DNA of 64,000 bases. It comes from Bifidobacterium boum. Its GTDB lineage: Bacteria; Actinomycetota; Actinomycetes; Actinomycetales; Bifidobacteriaceae. The position numbers and the translations under genes are program-made. Location of the stretch: contig NZ_JGYQ01000007.1 of NCBI RefSeq assembly GCF_000741535.1, positions 434,001-498,000 of the forward strand, read 5' to 3'. Shown one piece after another: positions 21,705-51,771 of the stretch (its first letter is position 1; every line of letters begins with the position of its first letter). Under the pieces are notes generated by a model, which worked only from the letters and a program-made list of their open reading frames with translations, was not told the origin of the DNA and did not search any database.

Positions 21705-22195
21705 CGCAATCCCTTATCTCTTATTCTCTAGCTCTCTCTAGGGCGGCACGCTCTACCACGTTGGAATCGCGTGCCATGCTGTGTCCAACGACGGCAATCC
21801 CGACATTAGGATGCAATCGCTGTCATTGTTTCACACTGTACAACATGCTGCCAACCGTGGACGGAATGTATCATTCGGTGGAACGGAGCAAAGCGTGGGC
21901 CGGAGCGGGTTCTCAGTGCTGGACGGGCTCTTCGGTTCCACAGCGGGCAGTTGCGCGGGTGATTCGCGTGGTGTGGAAAAGCAACCATGGAACAAGATGA
22001 TCTGGCGGATTGGGCAGCAATGCCTCATCGTTGATATTCCGCGGTTCTGTGATATGCGAGGATGGCGAGCGCCGCACGATGCCACCGCCAAGACCTCCAT
22101 ACCCGCAATATCGCATACCGAAATGCGCTGTACGGAACGGGAGCCGAAGCAAGGCGCCGTGTCCACGGCGAACCCTAGCATGGCACCCGTAATGC
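21705..22195. other. Gene-free stretch upstream of the thiamine riboswitch
   Basis: About 490 bp between the divergent acyltransferase and thiM. Open frames here show no recognisable protein features, and no repeat of the other families is visible. It must contain the thi promoter; a TAGCAT about 20 bp before the riboswitch is a weak -10 candidate. Confidence 0.5.
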
Positions 22196-22285
22196 AGTGC
22201 AGGGGAGCCGAACCGGAAGGCTAGGCTGAGAAAGGCATGACGCCTGACCCTTAGAACCTGTTGGTTAGAACCATCGTAGGGAGCA
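22196..22285 (+). promoter_or_regulatory. TPP riboswitch (THI element)
   Basis: The conserved core is present in order: GGGGAGCC at 22202, GCTGAGA at 22224, GACCCTTAGAACCTG around 22247-22260, then the P1-side CGTAGGGAG at 22275-22283. The final GGGAG is also the thiM ribosome site, ending six bases before the ATG. No terminator lies between, so control is most likely at translation initiation: TPP binding hides the ribosome site. It governs thiM and probably the following thi genes. Confidence 0.95.
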
Positions 22286-22289
22286 GCAC

Positions 22290-23324
22290 ATGAGCGTGAA
22301 CGTCTCATCTGACCAGTCATATCAGCCATACCATTGTGTCGCCGCACCCATTGGTATGGGCGGATCATCACCGACCCCACCCGCGACAGCGCCAGTCGTT
22401 CCAACACAAAACACCGCAGCATCACAGTCCGGTGCAGCCCAACCGCATATCGATGACCTGCGCCACCGGATCGAAACAGCAACCACGCGAGTACGCGACA
22501 CCACTCCGCTCGCGCAATCCTTCACGAACTTCGTGACCATCAACCTGGTCGCCAACGCGCAGCTGGCATCCGGCGGAACCGCAGCCATGAGCTTCCTGCC
22601 TGACGACGTGATCGACACGGCCGCCATCGCCGGCTCCACTTATATCAACGTGGGTACGCTCCTTCCGTTCTTCAAGGATGCCCTCACGCAAATCGCCCAC
22701 CGATTCCACGAGATGAAGCATCCGTGGGTGCTGGACCCGGTCGCCGCCGGCATCGGCGCCACACGAACCGCCATTCTCACCGGGTTCAAAGCCGCTCCCC
22801 CAACCATCGTGCGCGGTAACGCATCTGAAATCATCGCGCTTGCCGACATGTGGAATCTCAATACCAACACCGTCATCGGCGGTGCCAATACCACCGAACC
22901 CAGCACGCGACCGGCAGGCGTGGAAGCCGTTGACGACGTCGATTCGGCGCAGAATGCCGCGGTCCAGCTCGCCCGATACCTGCGTGACCATAACGGGCTC
23001 GGCCATGCCGCAGTGGCCGTATCCGGCGCAACCGACCTGGTCACCGACGGCGACACCGTCTACCGGCTGCCCGGCGGCAGCGCCATGATGACCAAAATCA
23101 CCGGCGCAGGATGCTCCCTCGGCGGCGTCACCGCCACGTATCTTGCCGTCACCGACCCGCTGACCGCGGCAGTCGGCGCATCCGCCCTTTACAACCGTGC
23201 CAGCGAGCAGGCCGAACGCGTCAGCCACGGTCCGGGCAGTTTCCAAACCGCGTTCCTTGACGCCCTGTGGAGCACAAGCGCGCAAACAGTCGCCCAGTCC
23301 ACAATCACCGCGAGCGCAGCCTGA
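22290..23324 (+). CDS. thiM: Hydroxyethylthiazole kinase
   Basis: Phosphorylates 5-(2-hydroxyethyl)-4-methylthiazole, letting the cell reuse the thiazole half of thiamine. 344 residues, longer than the usual 270 because of an N-terminal extension of about 60 residues. Ribokinase-like core: FTNFVTINLVANAQLASGGTAAMSF at the N-terminus, DPVAAGIGATR, RGNASEI, and the C-terminal anion-hole GAGCSLGG. First gene after the TPP riboswitch, and its ribosome site lies inside the switch. Since no thiG, thiH, thiS or thiF is seen nearby, thiazole is probably obtained by salvage. Confidence 0.95.
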   Translation: MSVNVSSDQSYQPYHCVAAPIGMGGSSPTPPATAPVVPTQNTAASQSGAAQPHIDDLRHRIETATTRVRDTTPLAQSFTNFVTINLVANAQLASGGTAAMSFLPDDVIDTAAIAGSTYINVGTLLPFFKDALTQIAHRFHEMKHPWVLDPVAAGIGATRTAILTGFKAAPPTIVRGNASEIIALADMWNLNTNTVIGGANTTEPSTRPAGVEAVDDVDSAQNAAVQLARYLRDHNGLGHAAVAVSGATDLVTDGDTVYRLPGGSAMMTKITGAGCSLGGVTATYLAVTDPLTAAVGASALYNRASEQAERVSHGPGSFQTAFLDALWSTSAQTVAQSTITASAA

Positions 23325-23452: not shown

Positions 23453-27138
<3,686 letters not shown>

Positions 27139-27253: not shown

Positions 27254-27637
27254 ATGACCCTCGATCGTAATGCGGAACGGCAGGAAGTGCCGGTCGACCC
27301 CGAAACCGGCAAGCCATACATCAACACGCTCGCCGCCGTAGCTATCAGCCCGGCAGGGGCAAGCCCTGAAAAGTCAACATACGTGGCGCAGGCAGTTGAC
27401 GTGATCCGTCAATCCGGACTACCGAACGAAACCAACGCCATGTTCACCAATATCGAAGGTGATCTCGACCAAGTGCTCGCCACCATTCGCGACGCGACCA
27501 TGAAGCTCGCCGGCCAAGGCTACCGCACTGATGTGGTCATCCGGCTGGACATCAGGCCGGGATTCAGCGGGCAGATCCACGCCAAGCAGGAGCTTGTCGA
27601 CGAAATCCTCGACGGGAAGGCCGACCAAGGCGAGTGA
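27254..27637 (+). CDS. Thiamine-binding protein, MTH1187/YkoF-like
   Basis: 127 residues of the small ferredoxin-like MTH1187/YkoF fold (AVAISPAG, then IEGDLDQVLATIRDATMKLAGQG, then VIRLDIRPG). Family members bind thiamine or its HMP moiety and often sit with thi genes, as here, 115 bp after thiD. Start ATG 27254 with AGGAAGGA upstream. Probably a cytosolic thiamine or HMP binding factor; exact ligand unknown. A palindromic array begins 9 bp after its stop. Confidence 0.85.
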   Translation: MTLDRNAERQEVPVDPETGKPYINTLAAVAISPAGASPEKSTYVAQAVDVIRQSGLPNETNAMFTNIEGDLDQVLATIRDATMKLAGQGYRTDVVIRLDIRPGFSGQIHAKQELVDEILDGKADQGE

Positions 27638-27645
27638 CGGCGGCT

Positions 27646-27902
27646 GCTATCTTGCCGCGGTATGATCACACCGCGGCAAGATAGCAGCGGATACAGAGGC
27701 CCGACGCAAGATATCAGGCCGCCGTGCGACACAACAGTCACACCGCAACCAGATACCGCAACGAATCCGGGACGCAACCGGGGGTATCTGCCAGCCGTGC
27801 GACGCAACAGTCACACCACAACCAGATACCCGCAGGGCAACAGGCAAAACCGCCAGTATCGCCCCGTGGTGTGATGATGCAGTCACACCGCGGGGCGATA
27901 CC
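27646..27902. repeat. Four-unit array of a 48-bp nested palindrome, 72-bp period
   Basis: Units at 27646-27685, 27710-27757, 27783-27830 and 27855-27902. Each full unit reads GGTATC, 8 nt, GTGYGA, 8 nt, TCRCAC, 8 nt, GATACC (ends vary slightly). The first unit is the same with the central 8 nt exactly missing. Its outer arms are perfectly complementary. Gaps between units are 24, 25 and 24 bp, with unrelated sequence. No ORF of interest. The same unit occurs twice at 51652-51771. Function unknown. Confidence 0.85.
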
Positions 27903-28023
27903 ATTACGGGGGTGTCCGCTACACCCACCCCCCTTCCATGATTTACCCAGTTATTACTGAAGTTTCGCTGTTTTTGTTCACATCTACAGCTGAATCTTTA
28001 GTACAATGGGGGGTATGGTCACC
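27903..28023 (+). promoter_or_regulatory. LacI-gene upstream region with candidate -10
   Basis: TACAAT lies just upstream of the start region (around 28000-28005), preceded by T-rich DNA. No clear -35 at the proper distance. It is the only AT-rich stretch between the palindrome array and the regulator gene. Confidence 0.35.
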
Positions 28024-29151
28024 ATGAAGGATATTGCAGCAAAGGCGTGCGTATCAATCTCCACAGTCTCGTTGGTCATCAACCACCGCGACAAAGGTCG
28101 CGTCAAACCCGACATTGCGGCGACTATTTGGAAAGTCGCCGAAGAACTCGGATATCATCCGAACGCCATGGCCCGCTCATTACGCAGCGGCCGGACACAC
28201 ACCATCGCTTTTATCAGTGACCAAGTCGCCACCACCCCGTACGCGGGCGAAATCATTCACGGTGCCGAAGACGCAGCCCGCCAACTCGGGTATATGATGT
28301 TCATCATCGATGCCGATGACGAACGCGACATCAGCGGCGACATCGACCGCATGCTCAGCTGGGGCGTAGACGGCTACATTTACGCCAAATTCGCCAACCG
28401 ATACATCAGCGTGCCGCCGACACTCGACGATCTGCAGGTCGTCGTCGTCAACGCCGAGGAGCGCACCGTCATCCACCCGCGAATCGAGCCGGACGAATTC
28501 TCAATCGGATACGACGCCACAGCACGACTGATCCACGCCGGATGCCGCCGCATCGCATACATCGGCTGCGATGAGCCCGCCATCGCCCAAGTCGGACGGT
28601 TCAAAGGGTATCGTCAGGCGCTGAAAGACGCGGGAATACCATTCGACAAGCGGCTGACCAACAGAGTCTCCCACGGTCGCCCCGCCCTCGAAGCCGTGTG
28701 CAAACTGCTGGACGACACGCATCCGGACGGCGTGTTCGCGTTCAACGACGCGCGTGCGGTCTACGTGTATGATTACGCGTTCCAGCATGGGCTGACCATC
28801 GGCGAGGACCTGTCAGTCATCGGCGTGGACAATCATGAAGTCATCTGCGATACTACCGTACCGGCGTTAACCAGCGTGGAACTGCCCCACTACGAAATGG
28901 GCTTCTGGGGAGCGTGCAAAATCATCTCCATGATCGAAGGCACCGACCCGATCGCGCAGAATCGTGTCACCCCCGCATACAATGCCGCCCCCACGCCGCC
29001 GCTGGACAATGACGGCCCCACACTTATCCGCTGCGCGATCATCGAGAAAAAATCCATCGTCGGCGGACCGCTCAAAGACAAGGATTCCACGCCGGCGCAA
29101 GCCGAGGAAACCTCGGAGCAGACCACTGCCGCTGCCGTCGCCACGGCATAG
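28024..29151 (+). CDS. LacI-family transcriptional regulator
   Basis: Sugar-responsive repressor type. The N-terminal HTH MKDIAAKACVSISTVSLVINH and hinge NAMARSLRSGRTHTIAFI are canonical, followed by a periplasmic-binding-protein-like effector domain (about 60-335) with GVFAFNDARAVYVYD and VIGVDNHE. About 375 residues plus an Ala/Glu/Thr-rich tail of 20 residues. I start at ATG 28024 because GGGGGG lies about ten bases upstream and family members begin at this Met; ATGs at 28006 and 28015 are alternatives. No transporter or glycosidase is adjacent, so the target and effector cannot be read from context. Ends in a strong bidirectional terminator. Confidence 0.9.
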   Translation: MKDIAAKACVSISTVSLVINHRDKGRVKPDIAATIWKVAEELGYHPNAMARSLRSGRTHTIAFISDQVATTPYAGEIIHGAEDAARQLGYMMFIIDADDERDISGDIDRMLSWGVDGYIYAKFANRYISVPPTLDDLQVVVVNAEERTVIHPRIEPDEFSIGYDATARLIHAGCRRIAYIGCDEPAIAQVGRFKGYRQALKDAGIPFDKRLTNRVSHGRPALEAVCKLLDDTHPDGVFAFNDARAVYVYDYAFQHGLTIGEDLSVIGVDNHEVICDTTVPALTSVELPHYEMGFWGACKIISMIEGTDPIAQNRVTPAYNAAPTPPLDNDGPTLIRCAIIEKKSIVGGPLKDKDSTPAQAEETSEQTTAAAVATA

Positions 29152-51651: not shown

Positions 51652-51771
51652 GGTATCGGCTTGTCGTGTGACCGGACCGTCGCACCACAGGCGGATAGCT
51701 CCAGGAATCAGCTGTTCCGGCCTGGTATCGGCCTACTGTGTAACGATTCGGGTACACTGAAGACGGATAGC
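51652..51771. repeat. Two units of the 48-bp nested palindrome, 72-bp period
   Basis: Units 51652-51699 and 51724-51771 share the exact layout of the array at 27646-27902: GGTATC, 8, GTGTGA, 8, TCGCAC, 8, GATAGC; the second has GTGTAA and GTACAC in the centre. Gap 24 bp. They fill the 318-bp space between murI and the patatin gene together with unremarkable sequence. Confidence 0.85.

Follow-up and report, generated by a model that had tools for sequence, protein, structure and literature searches.

A clade-specific family of phased, mostly intergenic four-hexamer dyads in Bifidobacterium boum and its close relatives

The window analysed here is a 64,000-bp stretch of the B. boum genome (G000:C7:434001-498000), and coordinates without a contig name refer to it. 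Between a gene for a thiamine-binding protein (27254-27637; PF01910) and a LacI-family gene (28006-29151; PF00356) lies an array of four palindromic units separated by 24, 25 and 24 bp, at the positions (27646-27902) given in the first-pass annotation. Unit 1 (27646-27685) is only 40 nt long and, like the three spacers, carries no strand assignment. It is followed by spacer 1 (27686-27709, 24 nt), unit 2 (27710-27757, 48 nt, minus strand, 60.8 bits), spacer 2 (27758-27782, 25 nt), unit 3 (27783-27830, 48 nt, minus strand, 61.6 bits), spacer 3 (27831-27854, 24 nt) and unit 4 (27855-27902, 48 nt, 48.0 bits), a near-perfect palindrome whose minus-strand orientation is a weak call. The strand given is the T/G-richer one, on which the G.T wobbles of a unit gather. 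A second array, absent from the earlier list, occupies 51652-51771 and is flanked by an Asp/Glu-racemase-family gene (PF01177) and a patatin-like gene (PF01734). Its first unit (51652-51699, plus strand, 54.8 bits) is followed, 72 bp after its start, by a degenerate one (51724-51771, 35.8 bits, weakly called as minus strand). The window also holds a TPP riboswitch upstream of thiamine genes (22191-22299; RF00059, 54.6 bits against a cut-off of 54.3) and a 948-aa ORF (23459-26305) in which two thiamine-synthesis enzymes are fused, as a TMP-synthase domain (PF02581) and a ThiC domain (PF01964).

A full unit contains two outer and two inner hexamers at 8-nt intervals, with an 8-mer inside each arm and a centre between the arms. 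Unit 1 had been described as lacking precisely the central 8 nt, a description that comparison with B. thermophilum JCM 1207 (G101) corrects. The counterpart in that genome is a full 48 nt, and the 8 nt lost in the window comprise the left inner hexamer, GTGCGA, and 2 further nt; the centre's own GTATGA now occupies the former GTGCGA place. Because the gap relative to G101 falls between two CGGT direct repeats, the shortening looks like a slippage-type deletion rather than an exact central loss. The G101 locus has three units, not four, which by eye are window units 1, 2 and 4; no counterpart of unit 3 was seen there, and unit 3 resembles unit 2 (89% over 46 nt).

The hexamer pattern, allowing up to 3 mismatches, matched the window four times and 100 shuffled versions of it never; these matches do not include the shortened unit 1, the fourth being array 2 at 51652. 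The first-pass annotation had proposed extending this search to the genome, and had taken copies confined to the one array, with no conservation in sister species, as the outcome that would speak against its observation. Many copies were found in B. boum (37 places at up to 3 mismatches, with none for the reversed control) and more in three sister genomes; the family is genome-wide and its arrays are kept within the clade, which also includes B. thermophilum and B. apri. With 2 mismatches allowed, the pattern matched 4 of 112 genomes of the genus. These carriers are B. boum itself (G000), B. thermophilum JCM 1207 (G101), B. apri DSM 100238 (G008) and a record labelled B. thermophilum DSM 20210 (G100). 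A covariance model at E <= 0.01 matched 8 of the 112, with many matches in each of the four carriers; the other four genomes had one weak match apiece when scanned alone, one of these being read on both strands, and were not counted as members. In one of these four non-carriers (G033) the match is a lone 40-nt perfect palindrome (L145, about 1501-1540) that starts with GGTATCG and ends with CGATACC, resembling the shortened unit 1. When the exact skeleton was compared with 84,980 species, one genome each, in a collection that may omit the B. boum genome itself, matches were confined to two B. thermophilum records and B. apri. Two exact matches on viral contigs represent one shared sequence whose variable parts are unlike the consensus, and were taken as chance. 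At the end of the dgt gene, identity to B. boum is 95% for G101, 85% for G100 and 84% for G008, and the long matches of other genomes reach at most 73%.

A position matrix built from 43 units of these four species found, at 8 bits or more, 79 units in the B. boum stretches examined, 81 in G101, 42 in G008 and 32 in G100; 524,591 reversed positions gave no hit at this threshold. Another 9 units, at 3 places, came from twenty additional 20-kb stretches of B. boum. For the stretches examined in this genome this makes a total of at least 88 full units, to which the shortened unit 1 is added, in 27 + 3 clusters. Counts of at least 133, 140, 98 and 86 from a separate scan, in which no more than 150 candidates were scored, include both strands. 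Half-sites with at most one mismatch number 68 in B. boum, of which 63 are inside known units. The five outside (G000:C6:20630, C7:116786, C15:74837, C3:15373 and C15:201013) may in part mark further arrays. The open literature searched (titles and the beginnings of abstracts, with subscription papers mostly outside its scope) yielded no description of this repeat family and nothing with a dyad of four hexamers set on a seven-turn lattice. The units form a real, clade-specific, phased and mostly intergenic family of sites.

The phasing is strict. Of 158 pairs of neighbouring units, 140 are spaced at 72 or 73 bp, and the 148 pairs at 70-74 bp have a mean spacing of 72.24 bp, equal to 10.3 bp per turn over seven turns. 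Ten of the 158 spacings fall outside 70-74 bp; those of 62, 63 and 83 bp resemble shifts by one helical turn, but there are too few of them for any conclusion. Adjacent units average 64% identity. Identity between adjacent spacers is 36% (79 pairs), compared with 28% for spacers from different loci; spacer length is kept while most of the sequence similarity is gone. Orientation is common to 127 of the 158 neighbours, a figure that includes weak orientation calls for near-symmetric units.

Sequence constraint within the arrays was assessed by comparing B. boum with G101, using the 21 of 27 B. boum clusters that had a paired G101 stretch and units defined in B. boum alone. Substitutions were found at 66/1176 hexamer positions (5.6%), 95/783 8-mer positions (12.1%), 65/402 centre positions (16.2%) and 84/712 spacer positions (11.8%), and at 208/4671 positions (4.5%, coding included) just outside the arrays. 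The hexamers change less than the spacers (p = 3e-6) and do not differ from the DNA outside (p = 0.10), so the hexamer constraint emerges in comparison with the array interior but not with the flanks. Unit positions 3, 6, 16, 17, 29 and 32 show no changes among 49-51 comparisons each. Gap columns number 21 in the hexamers, none in the 8-mers or centre, 7 in the spacers and 39 outside. An earlier best-match pairing of 41 of the 79 units gave 4.5% for hexamers against 16.6% for flanks, by a method that favours similar pairs. Relative to the array interior, the arrays thus show what a double-stranded DNA binding site should show, with specific bases conserved and the rest free.

The number of units is less stable than their spacing. 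At the dgt-dnaG locus B. boum has 5 units, G101 has 1, G100 has 1 and G008 has 2; none were found in 26 non-carrier loci fetched with dgt, in 23 of which the start of dnaG was located. Because unit number varies between close species, no single array seems to be needed in full. Comparison of B. boum with its 95%-identical sister in this region (L091-L094) shows a difference of four units and divergence in the left half of their common last unit, as if recombination had taken place within that unit. Variation in unit number between corresponding arrays, together with the common orientation of most neighbours, would suit ordinary functionless tandem repeats of the MIRU/VNTR kind, maintained by nothing but slippage and unequal crossing-over. 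We consider this very unlikely, as the spacers have mostly diverged while 140 of 158 distances stay at 72 or 73 bp, and the hexamers evolve more slowly than the rest of the array. Gains and losses of whole units, and a geometry of inverted arms around a variable crossover region of 6-8 bp, would also be expected of core sites for a tyrosine or serine recombinase. However, about 90 or more such sites per genome should be unstable, and arms of ~20 bp with two sub-sites are longer than those of known core sites; we give this explanation almost no weight.

The palindromic units could alternatively act as hairpins. Trains of 20-bp stems joined by 24-nt linkers, in RNA or single-stranded DNA, might stabilize or end transcripts or be cut by RNase. 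Predicted folding of the units is strong (-21.4 kcal/mol, compared with -13.2 for shuffles) and on both strands better than that of arm-swapped chimeras (-21.4 versus -20.7 and -15.5 versus -14.8 kcal/mol), with none of 60 chimeric sets as stable. Pairing between arms was examined in 154 non-redundant units, after 74 of 228 had been dropped at 80% identity. Watson-Crick pairing of the arms was 0.594, compared with 0.604 after random re-pairing of all arms; since left and right arms are pooled there and strand skew enters, that control is biased against hairpins, and re-pairing of left with right arms only is the fairer test. By this test the whole stem shows no significant excess (0.594 versus 0.588; 62 of 500 sets as high), nor is there any excess in the inner (0.755 versus 0.763) or outer hexamers (0.584 versus 0.598), which lacked it in the all-arm test as well. 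The 8-mers do have a small but significant excess (0.480 versus 0.448; 1 of 500 as high), and the unit centre has a deficit. Pairs changed on both sides numbered 11, compared with 8.5 in shuffles (23 of 500 as high), and covariation over the whole stem was marginal (81.3% versus 80.2% paired; 58 of 500 as high, with the strand of each unit chosen by wobble count). A run of at least five T followed units in none of 456 flanks, and of at least four in 9, compared with 5 after shuffling; at the window locus no intrinsic terminator was found and no Rfam family at gathering scores. Thus, the hairpin effects are minor but not nil, because the hexamer arms do not co-vary while the 8-mers show their small pairing excess. 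Rare events of quasipalindrome correction, or weak selection for hairpins, could be the source of that excess; neither explains the hexamers or the lattice. An RNA hairpin as the main explanation was rejected after tests by pair counts, arm re-pairing and chimera folding. The gathering of G.T wobbles on one strand would fit hairpin trains, but unit orientation follows the leading strand rather than transcription, and overall we regard them as an unlikely explanation.

The origin on contig C15 is marked by dnaA at 214 kb, with parS-like sites near it at 219.6 and 221.5 kb, and unit orientation switches across it, with 24 of 30 units on the minus strand to the left of dnaA and, to the right, a single array of three units on the plus strand. 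Further parS-like clusters lie on the same contig far from the dnaA-linked ones (G000:C15:59884-59971 and 117827-117982), and similar ones occur on contigs C5 and C10 of G101. With the leading strand taken from fourfold-site skew on C6, C7 (where it is weak) and C16, and from dnaA on C15, orientation agrees with it for 54 of the 67 units assigned; units on C2 and C13, which show no clear skew, were left out. The exceptions are L030 (0 of 2 units) and L037 (5 of 9). The sign of GC+TA skew agrees with orientation in 15/22, 17/21, 7/10 and 6/8 loci, with rank correlations that are non-significant in three of the four genomes. Orientation probably tracks the leading strand through mutational bias; C-to-T change on the leading strand would produce just these base differences, such bias is enough, and we therefore claim no selected polarity. 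The strand asymmetry was rejected as a transcription signal because array 1 of the window is antisense to both neighbouring genes and other arrays are mixed.

The 27 B. boum clusters lie between tandem (15), divergent (5) or convergent genes (4), or overlap an ORF (3), as judged by a crude gene caller. By the same crude calls, clusters are clear of ORFs in 24/27 cases in B. boum, 21/25 in G101, 12/14 in G008 and 10/10 in G100. Some neighbours, recognised by eye, are putative housekeeping genes (purF-, dnaE-, dnaG- and zwf-like), and no single regulon is apparent among them.

High copy number, mostly intergenic placement, clustering and restriction to one clade could also be the mark of a selfish palindromic family, REP/BIME- or MITE-like, that spread in an ancestor of the clade. 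The copies would then be old, the transposase lost or acting elsewhere, and the hexamers its former recognition sites. REPs and BIMEs share these features (PMC2817692). However, the Y1_Tnp/RAYT transposase domain (PF01797) occurs in none of the four carriers though present in 7 of the 112 genomes of the genus, and a link to RAYTs was ruled out on this ground. Corresponding arrays of B. boum and G101 match over long stretches, but among the 76 arrays compared a same-genome match longer than 60 bp at more than 90% identity occurs just once (96% over 93 bp, between G101 arrays about 2 kb apart); the few other long same-genome matches cover 64-115 bp at 75-80%. In old copies that evolve neutrally, moreover, hexamers would not be expected to be better preserved than spacers between species; the spacers, too, hold their length and not their sequence. 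We consider a selfish family doubtful as an explanation of the arrays. Recent mobility is not supported, given that none of the carriers has Y1_Tnp and that loci hardly ever share long near-identical copies; an old mobile origin is possible. To judge from their sequences, the arrays appear to sit at old positions, gaining and losing whole units and apparently not jumping now.

Among the suggestions of the first-pass annotation were an ordered protein array and a mobile palindromic element. The second is not borne out for recent times, given the lack of Y1_Tnp/RAYT, the loci shared across species and the single long near-identical pair. The first fits best with the strict 72/73-bp lattice, the poorly related spacers, the independence of the hexamer arms and the conservation of hexamers above the array interior. 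We put it at close to an even chance that the units are phased double-stranded DNA sites for a putative DNA-binding protein, about seven helical turns apart. Each unit would comprise two inverted arms of ~20 bp (5'-GGTATC-8-GTGYGAC and its reverse complement) flanking a variable centre of 6-8 bp, and the 72-73 bp spacing would place equivalent sites on the same face of the helix. A sequence-specific protein, clade-specific or recruited, may bind each unit as a dyad and contact each arm at two sub-sites 14 bp apart. Cooperative binding of neighbouring units could then give rise to an ordered complex at each of about 30 or more loci. Its role may be architectural, for example in nucleoid packing, insulation or anchoring of supercoils, as with gyrase at BIME-2. 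Because arrays occur in all gene arrangements and beside unrelated genes, such a role seems likelier than control of one regulon. A bolder proposal, possible but in our judgement somewhat unlikely, is that a clade-specific protein on this seven-turn, four-hexamer lattice at ~30 or more loci constitutes a bacterial chromatin with its own DNA code, coherent with the direction of replication. If one protein does bind the lattice, the system would be a compact one (a short code, about 30 loci, four carriers and roughly a hundred non-carriers in the genus) in which to ask how a new factor that organises or insulates the chromosome arises in bacteria. A repeat family that conserves linker length over linker sequence is, in any case, easily missed by similarity-based repeat searches.

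Several known systems can be set beside these arrays. CRISPR arrays differ in that their repeats are near-identical, whereas adjacent units here average 64%, and the lack of both a T-run after the stem and an Rfam match separates the arrays from intrinsic terminators and Rfam RNAs. The CRP-type operator is TGTGA-N6-TCACA, which the inner dyad GTGTGA..TCACAC resembles, but the inner spacing here is 8, the outer hexamers are conserved and the units form 72-bp periodic arrays. Mycobacterial MIRU/VNTR loci, likewise actinobacterial, contain tandem units between genes, some tens of bp long, that vary in number, as do the units at the dgt-dnaG locus (5, 1, 1 and 2). Here, however, adjacent units average only 64% identity and it is mainly the four hexamers that persist, and the whole period including the spacer is not repeated as in a tandem repeat (spacer identity 36% versus 28%). 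Site arrays of other nucleoid proteins consist of multiple phased extragenic sites.

REP, BIME and REPIN families with their RAYTs are numerous extragenic palindromes that are clustered, often regularly spaced and species-specific, and BIMEs bind gyrase and IHF (PMC2817692, PMC3116915). The present family is likewise extragenic and of many copies (at least 88 full units in B. boum), but its four carriers lack Y1_Tnp. Stenotrophomonas inter-REP segments show substantial length variation, and REP palindromy is kept by complementary changes (PMC2817692); linkers here are constant in length and not in sequence, and the hexamer arms do not co-vary, although the 8-mers and the folding show a small excess of pairing. 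REPs alternate in orientation within BIMEs, whereas 127 of 158 neighbours here share it, with weak calls for near-symmetric units. With arrays of nucleoid-protein or gyrase sites, such as BIME-2 (PMC2817692), the present arrays have in common multiple phased sites that lie outside genes and are suited to cooperative binding.
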